Assembly: GCA_027001525.1 (NCBI GenBank)
Contig: JALTMR010000439.1
Location: forward strand, 1-11,202
DNA: 11,202 nucleotides
DNA from: Gammaproteobacteria bacterium
GTDB lineage: Bacteria > Pseudomonadota > Gammaproteobacteria > Tenderiales > Tenderiaceae
Direction: 5' to 3'
A program made the position numbers and the translations under genes. Under the pieces are notes generated by a model. That model was not told the origin of the DNA, did no database searches, and saw only the letters and a list, made by a program, of their open reading frames with translations. Shown here in pieces: positions 523 to 11,202 of this stretch. The stretch's first letter is position 1. Each line of letters opens with the position of its first letter.

Positions 523-1719
523 ATGATTCGTGTAAATGGTTTGACCAAGATATTCTCCAGCGGTTTGAAAGCAATTAACCAGCTGGACTTAGAGGTTAGG
601 AAGGGAGAGATTCTGGCACTGTTAGGGCCTAACGGTGCAGGGAAAACGACCACTATTCGCGTACTTTCTACGCTCAGCGGCTTTGATGAGGGAGAGGTCG
701 TCGTCGCTGGCCACAACGTTGATGTTGAACCTGAAAAGGTGCGCTGCAAAATCGGTTTGGTGGCGCAGCAAACCGGTGTCGACTATTTTCTCACCGGGCG
801 AGAAAACCTGGAACTTCAGGGGCGTCTCTACCGTATGCCCAAGCAGGAGATCGTGAAACGCATTGAAGAGCTCGGTGAATACTTCGAGCTCGGTGATGCG
901 CTGGATCGCACCGTCATGACCTACTCCGGCGGCATGCGACGCAAGCTCGATATCGCCACAGCGCTCATCCACAAACCCGAAATCGTGTTTCTTGATGAAC
1001 CCACCCTGGGCCTGGACATCAAGAGCCGCCAAAGCCTGTGGCAATACATCCGCAAGCTCAACAAGGAACAGGGGCTCACCATTTTGCTGACCACCCACTA
1101 CCTTGAAGAGGCGGACCAGCTCAGTGACCGGGTGGCCATTATTGCCAACGGCCAGATTCGCGTTATCGACGACCCGGAGACGTTGAAGAACGATATCCAC
1201 GGCGACTCGGTGATCCTGACCTTTGACACTGACGGCCCGGAGGTCGGTGATTTCACCTACGCACTCCATGATGACCCCGATATAAAAGATATCGTTTGGG
1301 ACAATGACAACATTCACCTCTATGTCGATGATGGCAGCAAGGCCGTGCCCAAGTTTGTCGCTCTGGCGACAGAAAAAGGGGTCGGCATCAAGACCCTGCA
1401 ACTGGCACATCCGACCCTCGACGATGTGTTTCTTAAATACACCGGCACCACGCTGGAAGATAGCGGCGAGGAGGAGGGCGAAGAGTGGTGGCACCAGTGG
1501 GCTGGCAAAGGGGGCGGTAACGGCAAGTGGGAGAAGAACTGGCAGAAGTGGCAGGATCAGCTCGATGAAACCGGCACCGAGGAACAAAAATCCAGCTGGG
1601 CCGAACACGCCCAGCAATGGCAGCAAGGCGGCGACAACAAACAGGAAGCCACACCGCCACAGCAGCAATCGAAAGAGCAACAGGGCACCGACTGGCAGGC
1701 AGAGAACAAGAATAAATAA
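523..1719 (+). CDS. ABC-2 exporter ATP-binding protein, DrrA/NodI type, with Trp/Gln-rich tail
   Basis: This is the cytoplasmic ATPase that powers the membrane protein encoded next. Members of this family export drugs, lipids, lipo-oligosaccharides or glycans. The 398-residue protein has Walker A GPNGAGKT (35-42), Q-loop glutamine in VAQQ (80-83), signature YSGGM (134-138), Walker B IVFLDEP (154-160), D-loop GLD (163-165) and H-loop His192, so it should be an active ATPase. The DrrA-like C-terminal domain (about 225-308) ends in the usual HPTLDDVFLKYTG. Beyond it lies an extra low-complexity tail (311-398), so the protein is clearly longer than the usual 300-330 residues. The start is ATG 523, with TAAGG at 513-517 as ribosome binding site. 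It forms an operon with the permease (56 bases between ATPase stop and permease GTG). The substrate cannot be told from sequence; the family call is firm. Confidence 0.95.
   Translation: MIRVNGLTKIFSSGLKAINQLDLEVRKGEILALLGPNGAGKTTTIRVLSTLSGFDEGEVVVAGHNVDVEPEKVRCKIGLVAQQTGVDYFLTGRENLELQGRLYRMPKQEIVKRIEELGEYFELGDALDRTVMTYSGGMRRKLDIATALIHKPEIVFLDEPTLGLDIKSRQSLWQYIRKLNKEQGLTILLTTHYLEEADQLSDRVAIIANGQIRVIDDPETLKNDIHGDSVILTFDTDGPEVGDFTYALHDDPDIKDIVWDNDNIHLYVDDGSKAVPKFVALATEKGVGIKTLQLAHPTLDDVFLKYTGTTLEDSGEEEGEEWWHQWAGKGGGNGKWEKNWQKWQDQLDETGTEEQKSSWAEHAQQWQQGGDNKQEATPPQQQSKEQQGTDWQAENKNK
1453..1716 (+). other. Tryptophan- and glutamine-rich C-terminal tail of the ABC ATPase
   Basis: Residues 311-398 are rich in Glu, Gln, Lys, Gly and Trp and contain nine tryptophans (322, 323, 326, 336, 340, 343, 359, 366, 391), against two in the preceding 310 residues. 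Some Trp spacings (336/340/343 and 359/366) follow a 4-3 or 7-residue pattern that could place them on one helix face, but the glycines at 329-334 argue for local disorder. The segment lies after the last conserved motif of the family, so it is an addition rather than part of the ATPase fold. It is predicted to be cytoplasmic. A compositionally similar segment occurs in the RND protein of the convergent operon. Confidence 0.85.
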
Positions 1720-1740
1720 CGCCCGACGCCTTGCGCTCAT

Positions 1741-1757
1741 AAAAAAAAAAAAAAAAA
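1741..1757 (+). repeat. Homopolymer run of 17 A between ATPase and permease genes
   Basis: Seventeen consecutive A follow the T at 1740 and end at G1758, in the 56-base gap between the ATPase stop and the permease start. The run ends five bases before the permease ribosome binding site GAGGA (1763-1767). Length changes here would not alter either protein but could change translation of the permease, since A-rich leaders can help ribosome recruitment. The length could also be a sequencing or assembly artefact. Confidence 0.9.
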
Positions 1758-1775
1758 GTATTGAGGAAATTTATT

Positions 1776-2537
1776 GTGTTAGCAGATACCTGGTACCTGT
1801 TTTTAAAGTACACAAAGATCACCATGCGTATGCCCATGTGGACTTTGTTTACGCTGATTCAGCCGCTGCTATGGTTGTTGATTTTTACCCAGTTGTTCAA
1901 AAACGTGGTCGATACCAGCAACTTTGGCAATGAGAGCTATATCGACTTTTTCGTCCCTGGCGTTCTGGTGATGACGGCGCTGTTCGGCTCCTCCTGGTCC
2001 GGCGTCAGCCTGCTGCGAGAGATCACCGCCGGGAGCGTGGACAAGATGCTGGTCTCTCCCGTTTCGAGAGTCGCCATCGTACTGAGCCGGGTTCTGCATT
2101 CCGCCGCCCAGGTGGTGATTCAGGTGCTGGTGATCTTGCTCATTGCCTGGCTCGCCGGAGCGCAGCTTAACCTTGACCCGCTCTCACTGCTGTTGACCAT
2201 GGTCAGCGTTTTTCTGTTGGGCGTTGCGCTTGCTGCACTTTCAAATGGCTTTGCCATCATCCTGCAACGTGAAGAGCCGCTGGTGATGATCGGGAATCTG
2301 ATGACGTTGCCACTGATGTTTCTCTCCACCGCCATGGTGCCCAAACAGTTTATGCCGGGCTGGATTGAGACCATCTCAATCATTAACCCGATCACTTATG
2401 CCGTGGAATCTGTACGTGCCGTGCTGGTGGGAACACCGGATTTGGGTGCTTACTCATTTGGCGCGGTGATCATGCTCATTTTTGCCGCCGTCTCACTGGC
2501 CTGGGCAGTCAGCGCTTTCAACGGGCTGAGGGATTAA
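1776..2537 (+). CDS. ABC-2 type exporter permease, DrrB/NodJ type
   Basis: This is the inner-membrane partner of the upstream ATPase; two copies normally pair with two ATPases to export hydrophobic or glycan cargo. From GTG 1776 the protein has 253 residues, the usual size, with about six hydrophobic segments (near 22-41, 60-80, 110-128, 137-158, 169-188 and 228-248). Family features are the cytoplasmic segment LLREITAGSVDKMLVSPVSR (79-98), which contacts the ATPase, and the MPGW...NPITYAVESVRA region (193-215). GTG 1776 was chosen because GAGGA (1763-1767) lies eight bases upstream. An in-frame TTG at 1761 would add five residues but has only the poly-A run before it. The stop at 2535-2537 faces the 3' end of the convergent TPR gene, 45 bases away. 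Subtype and cargo are not resolved. Confidence 0.93.
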   Translation: MLADTWYLFLKYTKITMRMPMWTLFTLIQPLLWLLIFTQLFKNVVDTSNFGNESYIDFFVPGVLVMTALFGSSWSGVSLLREITAGSVDKMLVSPVSRVAIVLSRVLHSAAQVVIQVLVILLIAWLAGAQLNLDPLSLLLTMVSVFLLGVALAALSNGFAIILQREEPLVMIGNLMTLPLMFLSTAMVPKQFMPGWIETISIINPITYAVESVRAVLVGTPDLGAYSFGAVIMLIFAAVSLAWAVSAFNGLRD

Positions 2538-2549
2538 TGCTTTTTCGCT

Positions 2550-2573
2550 ATCCGCTGCAGCTTTGCAGCGGAT
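2550..2573. terminator. Hairpin between convergent operons, possible bidirectional terminator
   Basis: ATCCGCTGCA (2550-2559) and TGCAGCGGAT (2564-2573) form a perfect 10-bp stem with a 4-base loop, in the 45-base gap between the convergent stop codons. The position is right for terminating both operons. However, neither strand has a U-tract after the stem: the only T run (2541-2545) precedes it on the plus strand. It may act as a weak terminator or as a 3'-end-protecting structure. Confidence 0.4.
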
Positions 2574-2582
2574 GGCCAGTTC

Positions 2583-5270
2583 CTAAAAGCTAACCCGCAT
2601 CCCCAGATTAATCGAGTTACGCTGATAAGCGCCCAGTGAGCTGGCCTGCTCGATGACCTGCACCTGCGTTAACAAACCAACCGGCAAGGTAGAGGTCTGG
2701 CGAAAAAAGCCGTAGCTGGCAGAGAAACTGAACCGGTCATCAAAGCGATAGTTGGCCCCCACCTGAAGTTGAAATCGCAGATTCTGGCGCTTGATTGTGA
2801 ATTGGGTAATGGAGTCAGCGTTGCTGTAGTGATCATAGCCAGCACTGGCGCTGACGTAGGCGCTGATGGACGCGCCATAACGTTTGTTGAATCCACCGTT
2901 TATGGTATGGCCAACGTAGGCGTAGTCGCTGCCATATTCATGGTTGTTCTGCTTCCAGATCAGACTGTAACCATAATTCATGGAGCGCCCATCCGCCTCA
3001 CGGATAAAGGCGGTAAGCCCCGCAGATAACGTATCTGCATCAAAGATAGGGTTGGTCTCGGAGACAATCGTATAGTAGGAAAAGTTGGCCTGGTAGACCG
3101 TTTTGTCATCATGACGACGGATCGCATTGAGTATTAGCGTATTGGTGCTGGTCACGCTGTTATCTGAGCGCAGCACACCGTACTGGTTGTTGCGCTGAAT
3201 GCCCACGCGATAGGTGTACTTATCCCTGTCGTAAGACAACGAGGGGTAGTAGCTCAAATTGAGATAATCGTACTGACCCACATGATATATCTGGTACGAG
3301 GGGCTAAAAACAAAATTAAACTTGAGCCCCTTTCGGATTTTGTAGTTATAGTCGACGCGCAGTGAGGTATCGGAGCGGTAGTCAAACTGCTTGTTATCGT
3401 CGTTCAGCCTGGCGTTATCATCCAGCCCCAACGAGTAGCCGATACTGAAGCCCAGGCCGTTGATCTGACGTTGAATGACATCGACCCTTTTCTCGGCCAT
3501 TTTTTTAGTCGCTTCATTGGCGTTCATATCCAGCAATAACCCCCGATAGTAAACCAGGGCCTTCTCCTCCTCCCCCAAACGCTCATAAAGACGAGCCACG
3601 TTTACTTTGGCATTGACATTGTCGGGCCGGAGATCAAGTACCTTCTGGTACCAGGAGAGTGCCTCCTCCAACCGCCCTTCCAGCGTGTTAAGCCGAGCCA
3701 GGCCCCACAGGGTTTGGATGCTGTCAGGGGAGACGGCTAACACATCGAGAAAAGCCTGTTCCGCCGCCTCGAAATTTTTCTGTTCCAGGTAGAGCTGTGC
3801 CTGAACCGTCCAAAGCCGCTGCCGGATTGAAACGATGCGCTCTTCCTCATCCAGCAGCGATAGGGCAATGGCATAGTGCTCCGCTGCTTTGAGAAATTCC
3901 TCCTTCTCCTCCATCAAGGCACCCAACCTGATGCGGGCGTCAATATGCCCTGAATCAAGTGCGACTACTTTTTCGAAAACCTCGATGGCATCGTCTGTCT
4001 TGCGCTCCCTAAGCAAAAGACCACCCAGTTCGTACAGCGCGCCGATATCGCCCGGCGCATCACTCAGCACCGACTGGATCTTCGCTTCCTCGTGGTTGAA
4101 CTCCCGAATAAGCGCCAGGCGGTCGGCACCAATGCGCTGCTCCAGCGTGGTTAAAATAGCCACGGCACGCGCTCTATGGCCCCCCGCCAGATCATTGGCA
4201 ACGATATAATCCAGCTGCTCTACACCTTCCGGCACTTTGGCTATATCCAGATAGACGGTGGCCAGACGAATGCGGGCTTCAAACTCGCCGGGCTTGACCT
4301 GTATCACGCGCTCAAATGCTTTTGCTGCCTCTTCCAGCTCGTCATTCTCGATGTATATGAGCCCAAGGTTCATGTTGGCCACCACGTTCCAGGGATCGAG
4401 TTCGAGCACGGCCTCAAACTCCTGGCGGGAGAGCAATACGTCGTTTTGGTTCAGCAGGCGCAAGCCGACCAAGACGTGGTACTTGATTGTTGCCGCCTTG
4501 GTAATGGCCGGATTGAGTTTCAGGCCCAGCGCCTGCTTGAATAACTTTTCAGCCGCTTCATTACGGCCCGTGGCTTCGTAAACATTGGCCAGATAAAAAT
4601 GCGCTTTACCACTATTGGGCAGCGCAGCCACCAACCCCTGGAACGCTTTTTCGGCCAAGGCATAACGTTCATTCTCTGCCGCTGCGGCCCCGACTTTGTA
4701 TAACACCGCAGGCTCAGTCCCATAGTCAGCAAGCAGCTGTTCCCCCACCTCCTCAATGGCCTCGGCATCCCTGTTTCTTTGTGCTTTTTTGAGCAGCAGC
4801 AACTTGAGTTCACGATCAGCCTTTGTGTACACTTTTGATCCGTTGGGCGATTGCGAACGCAGCATCCGGTATTGAGCTATCGCCTTATCGTCCGCCCCCG
4901 ACTCCCGCAGCGCGCGCGCGTAAGCCTCCCGAATCGAGATGTTTTTTGGCACAATTTCCAGACTCTGTTCCAGCAGAGGGATCCCTTTTCCATACTCGTT
5001 TTTCATGAAGTGGATAATCGCCATGTTGTAGAGTGCGCGATAGTTTTTGGGGTCGATCGCCAGGATCTGTTGCAGGATACGAAAGGCGCTGCCAAAATCC
5101 TTGGCCGCCATGGCTTTGTTGCGCTGCACCAGTAGGCGCTGCACCGCCGCCTCTCGTTCAGCATCAGACATCACGGCAGAACCAGCAGCCGTTTGAGCCT
5201 GGGCAACCGCCAACAGCAAGCAACTGAGCAGCAACACCAGCGCGATGTGCCGGCAGCATCGACTCAACAT
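2583..5270 (-). CDS. TPR-repeat protein with C-terminal outer-membrane beta-barrel
   Basis: The 895-residue protein has a signal peptide (1-26, cleavage near AQAQ). A long TPR solenoid follows (about 36-600), with typical units such as ALYNMAIIHFMKNEYGKGIPLLEQSL, NMNLGLIYIENDELEEAAKAFERV and NVARLYERLGEEEKALVYYRGLL. About 290 C-terminal residues (607-895) alternate polar and aromatic residues and end in NLGMRVSF, a beta-signal with terminal Phe. Such architecture is known from polysaccharide export porins (PgaA, BcsC) and from Slam proteins that deliver lipoproteins to the cell surface. Which of these, if either, applies is not visible, and no glycosyltransferase gene is nearby. ATG 5270 has GGGAG seven bases upstream. 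It is the last gene of the array, 45 bases after the 306-residue protein. Architecture is well supported; the role in cargo passage or binding is inference. Confidence 0.85.
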   Translation of the reverse strand: MLSRCCRHIALVLLLSCLLLAVAQAQTAAGSAVMSDAEREAAVQRLLVQRNKAMAAKDFGSAFRILQQILAIDPKNYRALYNMAIIHFMKNEYGKGIPLLEQSLEIVPKNISIREAYARALRESGADDKAIAQYRMLRSQSPNGSKVYTKADRELKLLLLKKAQRNRDAEAIEEVGEQLLADYGTEPAVLYKVGAAAAENERYALAEKAFQGLVAALPNSGKAHFYLANVYEATGRNEAAEKLFKQALGLKLNPAITKAATIKYHVLVGLRLLNQNDVLLSRQEFEAVLELDPWNVVANMNLGLIYIENDELEEAAKAFERVIQVKPGEFEARIRLATVYLDIAKVPEGVEQLDYIVANDLAGGHRARAVAILTTLEQRIGADRLALIREFNHEEAKIQSVLSDAPGDIGALYELGGLLLRERKTDDAIEVFEKVVALDSGHIDARIRLGALMEEKEEFLKAAEHYAIALSLLDEEERIVSIRQRLWTVQAQLYLEQKNFEAAEQAFLDVLAVSPDSIQTLWGLARLNTLEGRLEEALSWYQKVLDLRPDNVNAKVNVARLYERLGEEEKALVYYRGLLLDMNANEATKKMAEKRVDVIQRQINGLGFSIGYSLGLDDNARLNDDNKQFDYRSDTSLRVDYNYKIRKGLKFNFVFSPSYQIYHVGQYDYLNLSYYPSLSYDRDKYTYRVGIQRNNQYGVLRSDNSVTSTNTLILNAIRRHDDKTVYQANFSYYTIVSETNPIFDADTLSAGLTAFIREADGRSMNYGYSLIWKQNNHEYGSDYAYVGHTINGGFNKRYGASISAYVSASAGYDHYSNADSITQFTIKRQNLRFQLQVGANYRFDDRFSFSASYGFFRQTSTLPVGLLTQVQVIEQASSLGAYQRNSINLGMRVSF

Positions 5271-5315
5271 GGTGACGCTCCCGTTGAGGCATGCAACCGC
5301 GGATCGATGGAAGAA

Positions 5316-6236
5316 CTAAAATAGCGCATTGATTCGGAACAACAGTTTCCAACCATCGAAGTTTAACTTCAGAGGGCGGTAGTCTTCTTTATTGGCCGCT
5401 TCCTGCGAGAGATACTCCAGGTTACTGCTTTCCGGCCCTATGCGCTGAGGCAACCACAGGTTGAGGTTATCGGAGAAAAGAAAGTCCTGCTTCGGATCGC
5501 CATTTTCCTGCAACGAGGCACCGCGCAATCCAATCAGGTAGGAGGCATCTGCTGAAAAAGAGAGCCACTTCAGGAGGAAAAATTCAACGCCAATCCCCGT
5601 TTGCAGGGCGAGCACCCCGGTGGCCTGGGTTTCGAGAATAACGCTTTTGTTGACCCCCGCGGCCGGCCCATTCAAATAGTTAAAGGCGATGTTCTCCCTA
5701 TAATCGATATCGAAAATTTCGTTCAGCGTTGCCCGATAGTAGAGCTTAAATTTGTCAGGCACGATCACCGTGTTGCGCCGCAACCCCACATAGAACTCGT
5801 TATAGGAGAGGGTGGCCGTGCGCACGGTAATGACATCGCTTCTCACCCCTTGAATGGCAAATGGCCCCTGCACCGACGCGGAAGAGGAGGCCTCCCAACT
5901 GCTGCCACCGACGATCACCGAGTACTTGGCGTTATAGGCCCACTGCAACTCAAGCCCGGCATTGGCCCCTATACCCAGGGCGGGCAGTGGATTCTGGATA
6001 TAAATGCGCTCCTGAGTCTGTGTATCGTCCTGAAAGTTAACGATGGTAGCCATACCGGAGATGGGGGATTTGAACTCCCCCTCGTTCAGGTCTTCAACAA
6101 CAGGTCGGTGCATACCCAGAAAGGGACCGAGACTGAATTTGGACTCCGCAAATACGGCGCGAGGAGCTAAGGCGACAAGCACACACAGAGCAGTAAATGA
6201 AAAAAGCTTTGAAACATCGCCTAACAGAAAATGCAC
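5316..6236 (-). CDS. Predicted outer-membrane beta-barrel protein of unknown function
   Basis: I do not recognise a named family. From GTG 6236 the product has 306 residues with a signal peptide ending AVFA (cleavage near 30/31). The mature part is rich in alternating aromatic and polar stretches (for example VITVRTATLSYNEFYVGLRR and VEFFLLKWLSFSADASYLIG) and ends in GWKLLFRINALF, whose terminal Phe fits an outer-membrane beta-signal. A small barrel of roughly 8-12 strands is plausible. GTG 6236 was chosen because AGGAGG (6246-6241) sits four bases before it and because it gives a clean signal peptide. An upstream in-frame extension to 6338 would lie inside the RND gene. The gap to the RND stop is ten bases, so translation is probably coupled to it, pointing to a joint function. 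Confidence 0.8.
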   Translation of the reverse strand: MHFLLGDVSKLFSFTALCVLVALAPRAVFAESKFSLGPFLGMHRPVVEDLNEGEFKSPISGMATIVNFQDDTQTQERIYIQNPLPALGIGANAGLELQWAYNAKYSVIVGGSSWEASSSASVQGPFAIQGVRSDVITVRTATLSYNEFYVGLRRNTVIVPDKFKLYYRATLNEIFDIDYRENIAFNYLNGPAAGVNKSVILETQATGVLALQTGIGVEFFLLKWLSFSADASYLIGLRGASLQENGDPKQDFLFSDNLNLWLPQRIGPESSNLEYLSQEAANKEDYRPLKLNFDGWKLLFRINALF

Positions 6237-6246
6237 CGCCCCTCCT

Positions 6247-8763
6247 CTATACAGCAACTCTCCGCCTATACACCAGCGGCAAGATAAAGAGCGCCACGAT
6301 GCAACTGATGACCATGTAGGCAACAACAAAAGCGCCAAGTTTCACGTGGGGTGGGAATTGCGACAGAAACAGAACAGAAAAACCGGCCGACACCACCACC
6401 GCGTTGAAGACAATGGTCCGCCCCACCGTTCGTAACGTCGCTGAAACGGCCTCTTCATGATTGCCGCACTGGTTGAATTCTCGCGTGTATCGAAAAATAT
6501 AGTGAACAGCGTAGTCCACCCCGACGCCAATCGCCACACCCGCAGCCAGTGCAGTGGAGACATCCAGCGCAATATTCATCCAGCCCGCCGCCGCTGCAAC
6601 GATGAGGGTGGTTAAGGCAACCGGAATGACCGTGGCGAGACCCGCCATCCAGGAGCGAAACATCAGTGCGGCAATCAGAAAGATACCAATCTTGGAGAAA
6701 ATAATCGCAATGCTCTGACTGTCGATCAGCAACTCTGCCCAGATGTATGAGTTATTGGCGGAACCCGCCATATTGACATCCACCTTTTCGTTCTTGAACG
6801 TTGTATCAACGAACACTTTAAGGTCATCGATAATCGTTCGGAGGTATTTGGTCTGATCCGTTTTTATGGAGATGGTGATGTTGGCTCTCTGATAGTCAAA
6901 ATCCACCACCTCGTCCAGCAGCTCGGGCTGACCGGAGACGGAGTACAAGTACAACAGCTCTGAAATTTCTGCTGTCGTCGCCGGTAACACGTTGTACTGC
7001 TCATCTTCGGCATGCAGTGTTTTATTCATGCTCTTGAGAAAATCGACAACGGAGAGAGAGTCCCCTACATACGGCAGGGTTTCTGCGTACTCCTGCAATG
7101 CATCTATTTTTCTCAACAGGGAGATCGATTTCAGCCCTCCAACGTCATCCGCCTCGACCACAACGTTGAGAAAGATCGACCCATCCAGCCGCTCGTTTAA
7201 TATATCGGTCGCAACGCGCACTTCCGTACCTTCTTTGAAATCACTTAGCCAGCTGGAATTCACGTAGAGTTTCGATGCGCCAACAGCCGCCAGCACCAGC
7301 ACCGATGCCAGCACGATTAAGGCGGGCTTTCTGTTGGCCAACAAAGCTGCGCCGGTGCCGACCAGAACACGGGTCAACCTGTCCTGCTCGGTATGCACCC
7401 TCATGGAGCGACGCTTGGCCAGATACCCGGCAACACGCGGCTGCATGAGCGACAACATGGCGGCAGCAAATGTGACCGTAAACAACCAGCTAAAAAAGAT
7501 ACCCAGCACAGTGAACAAGCCAAACACCTTGAAAGGCGGCATGTCCGCAAACAGCAAGGCGAGAAAACCGATGGCGGTGGTGATGGAGGTGGTGATGAGC
7601 GGTGCCCCTAACTCCGAAATTGCGTCACGCACAACATCACTTGCCGGGCGATAGGGATCCTCAAACACCTTGTTGTAGTAGTTGCTCATGAGATGAACCG
7701 AGTCCCCGATACCAATCGCCACGAGAATAACCGGCAGCATGGTGGAGATGGTGTACATGGGAACATTCAGCAGAGCCATGGAGCCCATCGTCCAGATAAT
7801 GGCCCCGGCCATGACACCGAGGGGAATGATGATTCCACGACCTGTTTTGAAAATCAGGAAAAGTGCGGCTGCCATCACCGATAGCAGCATCGGGATCATC
7901 ACCTTCAGATCCTCTAACGCATGCAGGCCAGAGGTCACTTCAATCACCGGGCGGCCGGCCAGGAAAAAGGTGTCACCGTTATCCTCTACCTCAGCGACCT
8001 CTTCTCCTTCTGCAGTCTGACCGGCAGATGACTGATGCCAGTCATCCACCACTTCGGGCTCGCTATCTTCAGCATGCCACTGCGCCTGTTCTTCTTTCGT
8101 CCATTGGTTGTCAGCACTCTGCCAATTCGAGGCATCACCCCACTCGCCGCCCCAGTCACCCCACTGACCTTCAGATGATTCACCCATCTCTTTGGCCAGG
8201 ATTGCCTTGATCTGCCAATAGGTTTGATAGCGATTATCTGCACCCTCTTTCAATTTGGCGCGAATAATGGCTGCCGTACCATCCGCCGAAACGAGGTTGC
8301 CCACGAACAGATCCGCATGTTGCTGTACCTTGGTTTTGAGCGCCTCGACGTCTGCTTGTGTCTCTGGCACGGCGAGCATCAATCGCTCGGCCCCCATGGC
8401 CGTATCAGTGCCGACAAAGGCGGTAGCGGTAGCCAATGAGGCGACATCAAGTGTGCGATTTGCGATGACGCCGGGCAGCTCGGAAACCTGCCGGGTAATG
8501 CGGGCAATCTTCGCTAGTGTCTCGGTGTTATAGATACTTTTTTCGTCGTTTTTGATGCCAATAATAAAAGCATCCTTGACGCCAAAGATGTGCTCTATTT
8601 TTTCATCATATTGAATGGCCGGATGGCCTTTGGGCATGTAGACGCGTGCATCCGTCTCCCAACGCAGCGAACCCATCTGCATCGCCATATAGATAGTAAT
8701 GGAGAAGATAACAAACAGGACTAATTTAGGATTTCGGGTAACAAAAGTGTATAGCGCTGACAT
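6247..8763 (-). CDS. MMPL/RND superfamily transporter, HpnN-like, with Trp-rich periplasmic insert
   Basis: The 838-residue inner-membrane protein has the duplicated RND layout: one membrane helix (13-30), a large periplasmic loop (about 31-287) and helices 2-6 (288-440), then helix 7 (478-497), a second loop (about 500-683) and helices 8-12 (684-830). Transmembrane motifs are AIGIGDSVHLMSNY (349-362) and AIGVGVDYAVHYIFRY (744-759). Asp354 and Asp750 are the expected proton-relay residues. MMPL-type RND proteins such as HpnN and MmpL3 move lipids or hydrophobic molecules using the proton gradient, so a lipid-like cargo is likely but unproven. A tryptophan-rich acidic segment (193-264) interrupts the first loop (separate entry). 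ATG 8763 is preceded by AGGGA with six bases spacing. The gene follows the DUF1302 gene (64-base gap) and precedes the 306-residue barrel gene (10-base gap). No MFP/TolC-type partner is present. Confidence 0.93.
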   Translation of the reverse strand: MSALYTFVTRNPKLVLFVIFSITIYMAMQMGSLRWETDARVYMPKGHPAIQYDEKIEHIFGVKDAFIIGIKNDEKSIYNTETLAKIARITRQVSELPGVIANRTLDVASLATATAFVGTDTAMGAERLMLAVPETQADVEALKTKVQQHADLFVGNLVSADGTAAIIRAKLKEGADNRYQTYWQIKAILAKEMGESSEGQWGDWGGEWGDASNWQSADNQWTKEEQAQWHAEDSEPEVVDDWHQSSAGQTAEGEEVAEVEDNGDTFFLAGRPVIEVTSGLHALEDLKVMIPMLLSVMAAALFLIFKTGRGIIIPLGVMAGAIIWTMGSMALLNVPMYTISTMLPVILVAIGIGDSVHLMSNYYNKVFEDPYRPASDVVRDAISELGAPLITTSITTAIGFLALLFADMPPFKVFGLFTVLGIFFSWLFTVTFAAAMLSLMQPRVAGYLAKRRSMRVHTEQDRLTRVLVGTGAALLANRKPALIVLASVLVLAAVGASKLYVNSSWLSDFKEGTEVRVATDILNERLDGSIFLNVVVEADDVGGLKSISLLRKIDALQEYAETLPYVGDSLSVVDFLKSMNKTLHAEDEQYNVLPATTAEISELLYLYSVSGQPELLDEVVDFDYQRANITISIKTDQTKYLRTIIDDLKVFVDTTFKNEKVDVNMAGSANNSYIWAELLIDSQSIAIIFSKIGIFLIAALMFRSWMAGLATVIPVALTTLIVAAAAGWMNIALDVSTALAAGVAIGVGVDYAVHYIFRYTREFNQCGNHEEAVSATLRTVGRTIVFNAVVVSAGFSVLFLSQFPPHVKLGAFVVAYMVISCIVALFILPLVYRRRVAV
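7972..8187 (-). other. Tryptophan-rich low-complexity insert in the RND transporter
   Basis: Residues 193-264, in the first periplasmic loop, are acidic and Gln/Gly/Trp-rich, with seven tryptophans (201, 204, 208, 214, 221, 229, 242) against eight in the other 766 residues. Spacings of 3, 4, 7 and 8 recall those in the ABC ATPase tail, and both share strings such as EEQ, AQW and NWQ. The segment sits between the end of the first porter-like subdomain and the stretch leading into helix 2, where MMPL proteins vary in length. It is probably disordered or a short interaction motif. The topology follows from the helices; function is unknown. Confidence 0.82.
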
Positions 8764-8827: not shown

Positions 8828-10303
8828 TTAAAATGAGTACTTAAATTCGAAAAAGACTCGGTCATTGTCGTTGAAATTACCGACGAATTGAGCCTGCTGA
8901 ATATTGACGGCGAAGTCACCTGCGCTGTTCTGGGCCGAGCTGCCAAAGTCTGACTTCGCGCCACTAAAAAGATCCATACCCACAGCGATCTGAAACCGGT
9001 TTGTTACTTGAAAAAACAGTTTGGGCTTAAGATAACTTTCACTCAACGACTTGAAGTATATGTACAACATTTGAAAGGTGAGGGACACCCGGGGGAACTC
9101 CTTACGTAGGAAAACATTGTACGAAGTATCCAGCCTGTCCTGAATCAGGGTGTCTTCATAGTCGAGAATAATCCACTGCATCACACCCACAGCGGCATCC
9201 CAACCCAAGACGACAAAGTCCGTGCCCAGTCCCCAGCGAATATGATTCTTTTGTGCCTCACCGTTGGTATCAACAATCAGATCGCCATCGACATCAGCCG
9301 TGTTCGAGCGACCAAAAAACTTATCGGTTACATAGGCAAATTCACCCTTGACAATATATGAGCCCAGTTGTTTGACAGTGGTAAGTCCGTACATGTTGAT
9401 ACGAGTATAAGTCGGATAGAAAAGGGGGTCTCTGCCACCGATTTTTACGGTACGAAAAATAACGGGAAAGTCGTCCCATGTGTAGAGATAACTGAGAGAA
9501 ATCTCCGTATCAAGCAGTGTTAAGTCCCACTTGAGCCCTATCTCTGCATTTTCCAGCTTCCAGGACTCGGGGGCACGGGTACCCGGTACCTCTTGTAACA
9601 GCTCCCACTCGGAACCCGGTGGTGCCGGTTTATGAAATTTCAATTCAGGAATAAACAGAAACTGGAAATCCCCCCAGTCGGTGTAGTAATCCACCTTTGC
9701 CGTCCAAAGGGAAATTCGGTAGTCCAGCAGATCGGGCAGGATCAATTCTCGAAAGTCGATGGGGTTAATTTCATCCACAATGCGCACCCCTTCAAGCACA
9801 CCCCACACCACATACTGCTTCCCCAAACGGGCGTCCCAATTATCTGCGGCGATATCCACATACAGCTCCCGAATAGCGGCTACCGGGCTATCTTTCTCTT
9901 GGGGCAGGCCTTGCACAAAAGCGAGGGGTTCTTCTGAATTTCGCTCCAGGCGGGCCGCGATGGTGTCATAGTTGAACAGATCGTAGGCATGATCGTAATA
10001 AGCCCAACCACTGAAGTTGAAATTTACAGCATCGTTAAAGGGGTACTGAGCATTGAGATAAGCGATGTTGCGGATTTTGGTGATGGACCGAGGCTCTCGG
10101 ATACGGTAAGCCGTTTCGTTCTTTAGATAGCCACTGAAACTAAAACGTGACCATATGGACTGCTCCGGCTCCTCTTCGACGGCAATCTCTGGAATATCAA
10201 AATCGCCAAAACCAACATCGAAATCTGACTCCTGCCCATAAGCGACAGGAGCCAGAACAAATGTAGAAATGGCCAGGTAAATCCAACTTAAACGTACTAC
10301 CAC
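8828..10303 (-). CDS. DUF1302-family outer-membrane protein
   Basis: DUF1302 proteins are predicted outer-membrane beta-barrels of unproven function that often neighbour RND/MMPL transporters and LolA-like or DUF1329 proteins. The hallmark is visible as RLGKQYVVWG (residues 159-168) followed by VRIVDEINPIDFRE (173-186). The rest is a long series of amphipathic strands ending FFEFKYSF, a beta-signal with terminal Phe. From GTG 10303 the protein has 491 residues with a signal peptide (VVRLSWIYLAISTFVLAPVA, cleavage near 23), then an acidic linker (about 25-48). The open frame extends upstream to TTG 10360, but that would overlap the preceding gene and spoil the signal peptide. GTG 10351 is a further candidate, and the ribosome binding site of GTG 10303 is weak (GGCGG), so the exact start is uncertain. 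It lies 22 bases after the zinc/RHH gene. Confidence 0.88.
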   Translation of the reverse strand: MVVRLSWIYLAISTFVLAPVAYGQESDFDVGFGDFDIPEIAVEEEPEQSIWSRFSFSGYLKNETAYRIREPRSITKIRNIAYLNAQYPFNDAVNFNFSGWAYYDHAYDLFNYDTIAARLERNSEEPLAFVQGLPQEKDSPVAAIRELYVDIAADNWDARLGKQYVVWGVLEGVRIVDEINPIDFRELILPDLLDYRISLWTAKVDYYTDWGDFQFLFIPELKFHKPAPPGSEWELLQEVPGTRAPESWKLENAEIGLKWDLTLLDTEISLSYLYTWDDFPVIFRTVKIGGRDPLFYPTYTRINMYGLTTVKQLGSYIVKGEFAYVTDKFFGRSNTADVDGDLIVDTNGEAQKNHIRWGLGTDFVVLGWDAAVGVMQWIILDYEDTLIQDRLDTSYNVFLRKEFPRVSLTFQMLYIYFKSLSESYLKPKLFFQVTNRFQIAVGMDLFSGAKSDFGSSAQNSAGDFAVNIQQAQFVGNFNDNDRVFFEFKYSF

Positions 10304-10325
10304 TCGATAAGGCCGCCAGCCATTT

Positions 10326-10751
10326 CTACATGCGATCTTTGCATGGATCACACAAAACAATCGGTTTCACGCCTCCCAAGCCGAAAGCGACCTCTCTTCC
10401 AGGCTCCAGGGTAACGCCGCAACATGCGCAAACTGCCTCTTTGTTCAATGTGATCCGTTTCCAGCCCAGCACGGAATTCAGCACATCTTCCTTCACATCT
10501 GTGTTTGCACTTTCTGAAAAACTCGGGGGAGAAGTAATCTCTGGAGAGGCACCAGCACCGTTAAAAGACTCCTCCAGAATATTACGAATCAGTATCGAGA
10601 CAGGAATGCCGAGATCTTTGGCTTTCGCTGTCACTTGATCCCGCAACTCTTTTGGCACCCGGGCACCCAGATACTCCTCTTTGCGCTTCATCGCGAGTGA
10701 TACCGCCTTCTCCCTCATTGCACTTCCATCATGACGCATAGAACCAGCCAT
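10326..10751 (-). CDS. Putative ribbon-helix-helix regulator with C-terminal cysteine (zinc) motif
   Basis: The 141-residue protein seems to join two small domains. Residues about 26-63 (EEYLGARVPKELRDQV ... LGIPVSILIRNILEESF) fit a ribbon-helix-helix fold: a short strand, then two helices with the typical P-x-S-x-L-I-R-N start of the second helix. This fold binds DNA as a dimer in CopG/Arc-type repressors. A linker (64-95) follows, then CACCGVTLEPGRE (108-120) and CDPC (134-137), spaced as a Cys4 zinc knuckle. ATG 10751 is preceded by AAGGAG (10764-10759) at seven bases; GTG 10757 would lie too close to it. It is the first gene after the promoter and is likely a local, perhaps autoregulating, repressor with metal- or redox-responsive properties. 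DNA binding and metal binding are inferred from short motifs only. Confidence 0.72.
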   Translation of the reverse strand: MAGSMRHDGSAMREKAVSLAMKRKEEYLGARVPKELRDQVTAKAKDLGIPVSILIRNILEESFNGAGASPEITSPPSFSESANTDVKEDVLNSVLGWKRITLNKEAVCACCGVTLEPGREVAFGLGGVKPIVLCDPCKDRM

Positions 10752-10776
10752 TTTCACTCTCCTTCTGCTCCTTGCT

Positions 10777-10990: not shown

Positions 10991-11202
10991 CTAAGGCCCC
11001 TTTTTGAGTGCTCTTTCTGTGAATTGCCGGTCCTTCAAGCCCACATCAACGGAGACATCGGTGACACCAAACATTGAACGGTGGCGCGTTTGTACGTTTT
11101 CCACTAACACCTTATCCCAGACCCAAGCACCCTCCACCTGTTGCCACTTCAAATTTGCAACCTTCAGCAACAACCCCTGGCGATCATAATAGTCCGTTTT
11201 TG
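10991..11202 (-). CDS. LolA-like 'outer membrane lipoprotein-sorting' family protein (C-terminal part)
   Basis: The frame enters from the right edge and ends at TAG (10993-10991), giving about 70 C-terminal residues of a protein usually near 250. The visible part reads KTDYYDRQGLLLKVANLKW, then VEGAWVWDKVLVENVQTRHR, then TDVSVDVGLKDRQFTERAL at the end. This matches the C-terminal pattern of the LolA-like family PF17131, periplasmic proteins with a half-open beta-barrel fold suited to carrying a lipid moiety, often encoded with MMPL/RND proteins. It lies 240 bases upstream of the regulator gene, same strand, and probably belongs to the same function. The N-terminus and signal peptide are outside the window. 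Family assignment is from memory of the motif, moderately sure. Confidence 0.75.
   Translation of the reverse strand, partial: KTDYYDRQGLLLKVANLKWQQVEGAWVWDKVLVENVQTRHRSMFGVTDVSVDVGLKDRQFTERALKKGP

Follow-up and report, generated by a model that had tools for sequence, protein, structure and literature searches.

Conserved tryptophan-rich segments on an ABC ATPase and an RND transporter encoded by one gammaproteobacterial envelope cluster

Introduction

In Castellaniella defragrans, the AmeABCD cassette encodes an HAE3-type transporter of the resistance-nodulation-division (RND) superfamily, AmeD, together with the DUF1302 protein AmeA, the LolA/DUF1329 protein AmeB, and AmeC; deletion of the cassette is reported to reduce monoterpene tolerance (PMC6394551). 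In Thalassolituus oleivorans, TOL_3187/TOL_3188 associate MMPL and LolA-like domains beside a porin-like gene, and an MMPL/LolA-like protein is reported as being up 42-fold on the n-C28 alkane (PMC6304351). The subject of this work is a comparable cluster in 11,202 nucleotides of DNA (the window) from a gammaproteobacterium of the family Tenderiaceae (assembly GCA_027001525.1, contig JALTMR010000439.1), and more precisely two tryptophan (Trp)-rich segments that it encodes: one forms the C-terminal tail of an ATP-binding cassette (ABC) ATPase, and the other is inserted into an RND transporter. The window is the complete contig G000:C439 of an incomplete genome (2.75 Mb in 583 contigs).

The window cluster resembles AmeABCD, as far as the accessible text of the latter allows the comparison, in that an RND transporter with HAE3 as its best family is encoded with a DUF1302 protein and a protein of the LolA superfamily. 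A DUF1302 gene lies near the RND gene in the window (Table 1), and a LolA/DUF1329 gene is present in the relatives L066 and L067, the window holding only the end of such a gene, recognised by eye. General profile scans of the window proteins named no AmeC-like family, COG4447 itself not having been searched. Unlike the AmeABCD cassette as described there, the window cluster has additional CopG-like, P4, tetratricopeptide repeat (TPR)/barrel and convergent ABC genes, and the accessible text mentions no Trp arm (PMC6394551). A distant Thalassolituus RND locus in our sample, L135, has LolA-like (by eye) and DUF1302 neighbours; it differs from the window in having neither a Trp insert nor a linked ABC pair.

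Among structurally characterised proteins, MMPL/RND relatives of the window transporter by profile include HpnN and MmpL3 (structures 6wu0, 5khn, 6n40), which function in lipid transport across the envelope; the Trp-rich insert lies outside every best stretch listed against these structures. On the ABC side, the window permease resembles drrB and nodJ, of the ABC-2 exporters DrrAB and NodIJ, under the cut-offs of both, and the ATPases described here differ from these systems by a Trp tail of 65-332 residues beyond the DrrA-type C-terminal domain. Wzt-type ABC ATPases provide another case of an extension on an ABC-2 ATPase, in the form of a folded C-terminal substrate-binding domain; the window tail, in contrast, appears disordered, both being C-terminal extensions that may read substrate. 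In the sources accessible to a literature search, no account of Trp-rich arms on ABC or RND transporters was found, which is not proof that none is in print.

The two segments and their conservation

Residues 311-398 of the window ATPase contain 9 Trp in 88 positions, against 2 in the remaining 310, and residues 193-264 of the RND transporter contain 7 in 72, against 8 in the remaining 766. A preliminary description of this DNA had already pointed to such segments in two otherwise Trp-poor proteins of convergent transcription units, and both observations hold, as do the Trp spacings of 3, 4 and 7 that it found in the two segments; of the strings it took to be shared, NWQ does occur in both, but AQW is present only in the insert, the tail having AQQW. 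The binomial chance of such a Trp content, taking 1.3% as the background, is 2.4e-6 for the tail and 4.4e-5 for the insert; these figures are uncorrected for the picking of the segments, and the real evidence is thus conservation.

A hydropathy scan places the insert between the transmembrane-like stretches 14-32 and 286-304 of the RND protein, a position predicted to correspond to the first periplasmic loop of RND pumps. In the ATPase, the tail comes after the ATP-binding and DrrA-type domains and, from family knowledge, should therefore be cytoplasmic, so that the caution originally raised about opposed topologies is justified. It contains a conserved block, EEWWxQWAGKGGGxxxKWxxxW, in which W322, W323, W326, A327, G328, K329 and W336 are invariant (36 sequences), followed by variable Trp-rich stretches. 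The disorder check proposed in the preliminary description gave the same result for both segments, which plot as disordered against a rough charge-hydropathy boundary and are probably disordered arms.

Conservation was followed in 76 loci, obtained from the best 80 of 122 stretches of a one-genome-per-species scan with the RND transporter. These comprise 48 gammaproteobacterial loci (best RND segment 49-62% identical) and 28 distant ones (24-32%), 18 of the latter being titled as FCB group phyla and two (L135, L139) as gammaproteobacteria. Judging from their titles, the 48 loci (L065-L112) all seem to come from assemblies of uncultured organisms, with no named cultured isolate. The insert is Trp-rich in all 47 gammaproteobacterial loci that include this region (the 48th, L110, is cut), with 43-317 residues and 3-20 Trp; the biggest, in L102:2223-5504, has 317 residues, 20 Trp and eight WxGNxW units. 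The 28 distant RND proteins all lack a Trp insert, 27 having a loop of 7-9 residues with 0-1 Trp and L139 one of 60 residues with no Trp. Among the nearest 120 RND proteins listed, 119 have at least three Trp in the insert by alignment count (P0103 has two), and Trp makes up 8.4% of the insert and 0.99% of the rest; an anchor pattern had fitted only 95 of the 120 (94 of them with at least three Trp), and the recount on the alignment took in all 120.

The tail is no less constant. All 27 ATPases linked to gammaproteobacterial RND genes have tails of 65-332 residues with 8-33 Trp, on cores with 1-3 Trp, and ATPases located elsewhere in genomes without a linked one add ten tails with 10-23 Trp and five further tails with 11-18 Trp; the tail is thus Trp-rich in 42 of the 42 ATPases found in the related genomes. 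Of the nearest 120 ATPases listed, 119 possess the anchor pattern, every one of these with WAGK and at least five Trp, and the end of P0237, which does not fit the pattern, is visibly Trp-rich. The ATPase of locus L048, 41% identical, has no Trp tail; together with the 28 distant RND proteins, it indicates that, as compared here, neither family normally has such a segment, as had been supposed. When relatives with at least 75% core identity are compared and residues with at least 20 comparisons are ranked, Trp is the best-retained residue in both segments (84% over 397 comparisons for the insert, 87% over 2438 for the tail), the next being His (68% and 79%).

The two proteins also occur together. 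Among 369 gammaproteobacterial genomes, 23 contain an RND orthologue (E no higher than 1e-120), 24 an ATPase orthologue (E no higher than 1e-80), and 23 both, spanning nine families; in 7 of these 23 the two genes are on separate contigs. As the genomes are related, the 23 co-occurrences represent fewer than 23 independent events. For the 48 gammaproteobacterial loci an ATPase was found in 43 cases, of which 27 are linked, one is cut (L098) and 15 lie elsewhere in the genome (10 of 13 genomes in one search and 5 of 8 in another).

Confinement to the two proteins in the DNA scanned

Trp tracts were defined as stretches poor in hydrophobics with at least 4 Trp in 50 residues, a limit on Arg plus His and a minimum of Gly, Gln, Asn, Asp, Glu and Lys. 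Scanning for them gave 74 matches in the 841 kb around the 48 RND loci, 73 of them in labelled RND or ATPase genes and the last in the ATPase of L098, which is cut, and zero matches in 454 kb around the distant RND genes. Zero matches were likewise obtained in 780 kb of spaced stretches of the relative G004, and both expected matches were recovered in a control stretch of G004 with its own cluster; this search covered about one fifth of the main contig of G004, with other genomes, including that of the window, outside the scan. General Trp-richness of the genome was rejected on this absence of matches in the sampled fifth of G004, where the many similar tracts in unrelated proteins that would have spoken against the original reading were not seen.

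The criterion was fixed after the first result was known. Either a looser hydrophobic limit or a lower Trp minimum gives one match in G004, and a still looser scan is noisier. The first version (at least 5 Trp in 60 residues) was too loose: it matched 48 times in 400 kb of G004, nine times in the distant loci and 94 times in the 841 kb; its matches in G004, in the distant loci, and in the gammaproteobacterial DNA outside the two genes look like Arg/Pro/Cys-rich open reading frames in the wrong frame.

In searches with the segments themselves, the tail matched the ATPase alone in 9 of 12 genomes, plus one match with an E-value of 0.09 in G002; with the insert, nothing was found except the window itself and one match with an E-value of 0.11 that contains stops. 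This silence on third proteins is weak, since sequence search fails to carry across inserts. A search with the repeat-containing tail of L194 returned 55 proteins, each of them an ABC ATPase according to its Pfam domains and none an RND protein, and it is too insensitive to exclude other carriers, because RND inserts with the repeat exist. One repeat-tailed ATPase, P0246, is named as coming from a Nitrospiraceae assembly, perhaps through transfer or a binning error. Within the scanned DNA, the segments are found on no third protein.

A repeat shared by inserts and tails

In 30 genomes that contain both segments, Trp accounts for 8.0% of insert residues and 9.5% of tail residues, against 1.1% in the RND cores, and the mean compositions of insert and tail correlate at 0.89. 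In a minority of genomes the segment is built from WxGNxWVxxDGxxK units, in the RND protein of some and in the ATPase of others. Among RND inserts, WxGNxW is present eight times in L102, four in L089, three in L111, two in L104 and once each in L101, L081 and L080; among ATPase tails, it is present seven times in the genome of L105, six in that of L097, four in that of L084 and twice each in those of L093, L101 and L103. When inserts were compared with tails by BLAST, the best pairs scored 118, 108, 96, 88, 81 and 71 bits, and the best of 20 shuffles 53.9; bits against shuffles were used in place of E-values, which were without composition correction. A DNA pattern for WxGNxWV produced 37 matches in ten whole genomes picked as motif carriers, of which 13 fall, by coordinates, in RND genes, 21 in ATPase genes, and 3 are single strays; the reversed pattern gave 6. 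On a tree of RND cores, read by eye with no formal count, repeat-bearing inserts turn up at three or more positions and so do repeat-bearing tails, the two kinds of carrier belonging mostly to different groups, with L101 and L104 falling within the main group of tail carriers. Because one motif serves two proteins in two compartments in some lineages, the likeness between the segments is more than one of composition.

Choline-binding repeats (PF19085; PDB 4cnl) display a recurring pattern of W, G and DG that resembles the shared repeat, the window's own segments differing in that they lack it. The sole PDB match of the L201 tail repeat is 4cnl, a weak and composition-biased one (E 0.001; single-stretch E-values of 1.4 and 0.19, with high composition bias), and the RND protein of L102 reaches 9.4 bits for PF19085, below the cut-off of 27, with no match in L194 or L201.

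The segments are old, occur together, and carry the same repeat in a minority of lineages. Chance composition was rejected on the grounds of conservation, confinement, shared repeat and Trp retention.

A possible common ligand

The preliminary description had suggested a shared localisation or binding partner for the two segments. A link between them is supported by the co-occurrence in 23 of 23 genomes, by the absence of any other carrier in the scanned DNA and by the repeat shared in a minority. We tentatively propose, at a probability short of even, that the segments are conserved, multivalent Trp arms with which two transporters of a single envelope-export system would grip one common ligand. 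The persistence of the arms in dozens of related species, on no protein but these two as far as the scans reached, suggests that the same molecule is handled by both. The cluster is placed in the envelope export of an amphiphile because its RND protein is HAE3-like, its ATPase is DrrA-like, and cassettes similar in make-up, those of AmeABCD and Thalassolituus, have been connected with hydrophobic compounds (PMC6394551, PMC6304351); the ligand would probably be an exported amphiphile or glycolipid, present on each side of the inner membrane. A single ligand met on both faces of that membrane is the most economical reading.

In such a mechanism, each arm would weakly and repeatedly grip the same ligand (amphiphile, glycolipid, or head group) through Trp stacking or cation-pi contacts, the Trp residues being set in Gln, Asn, Asp, Glu and Gly. 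The cytoplasmic arm of the ABC ATPase would gather ligand for the ABC-2 permease, and the periplasmic arm of the RND protein would hold it past the membrane step, for the LolA-like carrier and the DUF1302 and TPR/barrel proteins, the arms making no contact with each other. A more specific version, and a doubtful one, is a two-sided 'aromatic comb' relay, in which one kind of Trp repeat module would have entered two unrelated transporter genes, in separate lineages, to bind the same exported molecule in the cytoplasm and in the periplasm, and in which a disordered arm, rather than a folded adaptor, would join the ABC step to the RND step in lipid or glycolipid export.

Several observations weigh against a common ligand. 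By the orthologue check proposed in the preliminary description, insert and tail co-occur but do not co-vary: neither their Trp numbers (rho 0.06, p 0.77) nor their lengths (rho -0.05) are correlated, and their compositions do not follow each other when core distance is allowed for (partial Mantel 0.08, 317 of 2000 permutations). Direct pairing of the arms, already considered unlikely in the preliminary description, is rejected on this lack of covariation in Trp number, length and composition, topology being opposed as well. Furthermore, the two segments space their Trp differently: among pairs within 11 residues, 70.9% in the tail have helix-face spacing, against 54.6% when shuffled (a value reached by 0 of 200 shuffles), and 53.1% in the insert, against 54.9% (reached by 150 of 200), which suggests different shapes. 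Only this pair-spacing count separates tail from insert; a spectral test was unclean, with excess power at several angles in both segments (z of 12.3 at 80 degrees and 7.9 at 100 for the tail, and 5.0 at 100 for the insert), and does not separate them. The repeat is confined to a minority, 8 of 51 insert rows (at most 50 genomes, G046 being the genome of L080, which is thereby counted twice among the repeat carriers) and 6 of 40 tails paired with an insert; it is absent from the window's tail and insert, and L101 alone carries it in both proteins. In addition, one of the 369 genomes, G327, has the ATPase without the RND protein, no ATPase was found for 5 of the 48 RND loci (L074, L095, L099, L102 and L104), perhaps due to incomplete assemblies, and no biosynthetic gene that would name the substrate was seen beside the cluster. 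A permease is located at the contig end of L102.

Other explanations of the arms

Trp prefers membrane interfaces, and the arms could be interfacial anchors that set local lipid order or transporter position, with no binding of substrate. This explanation suits two compartments, and the helix-face spacing of the tail allows amphipathic helices; the insert, however, is non-helical by the pair-spacing count, and the hydrophobic residues of both segments are atypical of membrane-binding helices, with Leu, Ile, Met, Phe and Tyr at no more than 1.3% each (Phe and Tyr at no more than 0.3%) and Val at 3.0% (insert) and 0.7% (tail). We regard anchoring as unlikely and, in our judgement, Trp amid Gly, Gln, Asn, Asp, Glu and Lys, in segments where aliphatics are scarce, is closer to ligand-stacking sites than to membrane anchors.

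It is just as unlikely that the arms are homotypic stickers, clustering each transporter into patches or condensates on its own side of the membrane through Trp-Trp or Trp-Gln contacts. They do have a sticker-and-spacer look, with conserved Trp, variable polar spacers, and a Trp number that rises with segment length (rho 0.86 for the insert and 0.85 for the tail), and PMC13257379 makes mention of phase separation for bacterial ABC transporters. Nevertheless, the presence of one specific repeat in both proteins would be left unexplained, and Trp alone is used here, whereas known stickers often employ Tyr, Phe and Arg.

An improbable third alternative is that each arm binds its own protein partner by short Trp motifs, the likeness reflecting convergence on Trp-rich linear motifs. 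The lack of covariation between the arms favours separate partners, and the periplasmic TPR protein of the cluster could bind the insert, but the repeat shared by L102 and L089 (RND) and L097 and L105 (ATPase) would then be coincidence, and a single common protein partner on both membrane sides is hard to imagine.

The two remaining possibilities have very little to recommend them. That clusters of Trp codons slow translation under Trp shortage, both transporters sensing amino-acid supply while the peptide does little, would account for Trp being used rather than Phe or Tyr and for the compartment being irrelevant, but it is highly improbable, as it leaves unexplained the shared context round Trp (GN, DG, K) and the helix-face spacing of the tail, and the 3' end of a gene is, in our judgement, a poor site for attenuation. 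Functionless low-complexity expansion by slippage or recombination agrees with the tandem repeats and variable length in several lineages and yet is scarcely credible, given that spacers change while Trp is retained more than any other residue, and that the segments are kept in nearly every orthologue seen and found nowhere else in the sampled fifth of G004.

The surrounding gene cluster

The features of the window are collected in Table 1. The order RND, P4, TPR/barrel, and convergent permease and ATPase is found in 27 of the 48 gammaproteobacterial loci, with TsaD next in 21 of the 27, and the permease adjoins the ATPase in the 27 loci that contain both; most of the remaining loci either stop at a contig end or carry their ABC pair at another site. 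A DUF1302 relative is present in 43 of the 48. The LolA-like fragment of the window resembles, by eye, complete LolA_like (PF17131) proteins at the equivalent place in L066 and L067, that of L066 scoring 147 bits for LolA_like and 41.2 bits for DUF1329 (cut-off 23.1), with L067 similar. LolA-like, DUF1302, RND, TPR/barrel and ABC genes thus form a conserved envelope cluster.

Table 1. Genes and segments of the window
Feature	Position	Strand	Basis or remark
TsaD gene, end only	left edge of window	-	named by eye
ABC-2 type ATPase, DrrA subfamily, 398 residues	523..1719	+	Pfam ABC_tran and DrrA1-3_C; TIGR01188
Trp-rich C-terminal tail of ATPase, residues 311-398, 9 Trp	1453..1716	+	
ABC-2 permease	1761..2537	+	Pfam ABC2_membrane; true start perhaps slightly further in
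TPR protein, signal-peptide-like start, barrel-like C-terminal part ending in F	2583..5270	-	Pfam TPR families
P4, about 300 residues, signal-peptide-like start, no family match	5316..6236 (start approximate)	-	conserved in cluster
RND/MMPL transporter, HAE3-like, 838 residues	6247..8763	-	Pfam MMPL
Trp-rich RND insert, residues 193-264, 7 Trp, predicted first large periplasmic loop	7972..8187	-	
DUF1302 protein, outer membrane by family	8828..10360	-	Pfam PF06980
CopG-like protein, two CxxC motifs	10326..10757	-	Pfam match under cut-off, 22.3 vs 28 bits; conserved in cluster
LolA-like gene, C-terminal end, cut at right edge of window	10991..11202	-	by-eye resemblance

The ATPase exceeds the curated cut-off of NCBIfam TIGR01188 (drrA), with 328.2 bits against 312.45, and the permease remains below that of the DrrB subfamily (TIGR01247), with 126.3 against 223.05; a run of 17 A at 1741-1757 lies between the ATPase stop and the permease start. 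The RND protein belongs to the MMPL/RND superfamily (Pfam MMPL, 87.4 bits against a cut-off of 20.5), and its best NCBIfam match, HAE3 (TIGR00921), is nevertheless under the cut-off (209.1 against 351.9 bits), as is the hopanoid transporter family HpnN (TIGR03480; 79.7 against 751.85). For the TPR protein, with its predicted signal peptide and barrel, the matches to NCBIfam PrsT, BcsC and PgaA are all under their cut-offs, and the start of P4 is an inferred GTG after the RND stop. The CopG-like protein, whose CxxC motifs are at its end, stays beside the DUF1302 gene in many loci and is possibly a regulator of the cluster.

The cluster varies in several genomes. In L203 and L204 the ATPase is beside DUF1302, P4 and TPR/barrel genes, with the RND gene on a different contig (L097, L084); that RND contig has its own DUF1302 and P4 genes, which is compatible with partial duplication or relocation. 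Two tandem LolA-like open frames, recognised by eye, occur upstream of the cluster in L078, L079, L082, L083, L088 and L107. In the distant RND-LolA-DUF1302 loci L113 and L114, a TetR-like gene precedes the cluster and cyclopropane-synthase-like and methyltransferase-like genes follow it (by eye), hinting at lipid substrates.

Implications

If the arms do grip one ligand, two energy-coupled transporters of different superfamilies would act on a single substrate, and the same kind of disordered, Trp-only binding arm would operate on the two faces of the inner membrane. The arms would then provide a sequence handle for finding what is exported by a so far uncharacterised system, one that occurs in nine gammaproteobacterial families within the sample searched, and could serve as a test case for the selection of ligands by disordered segments.

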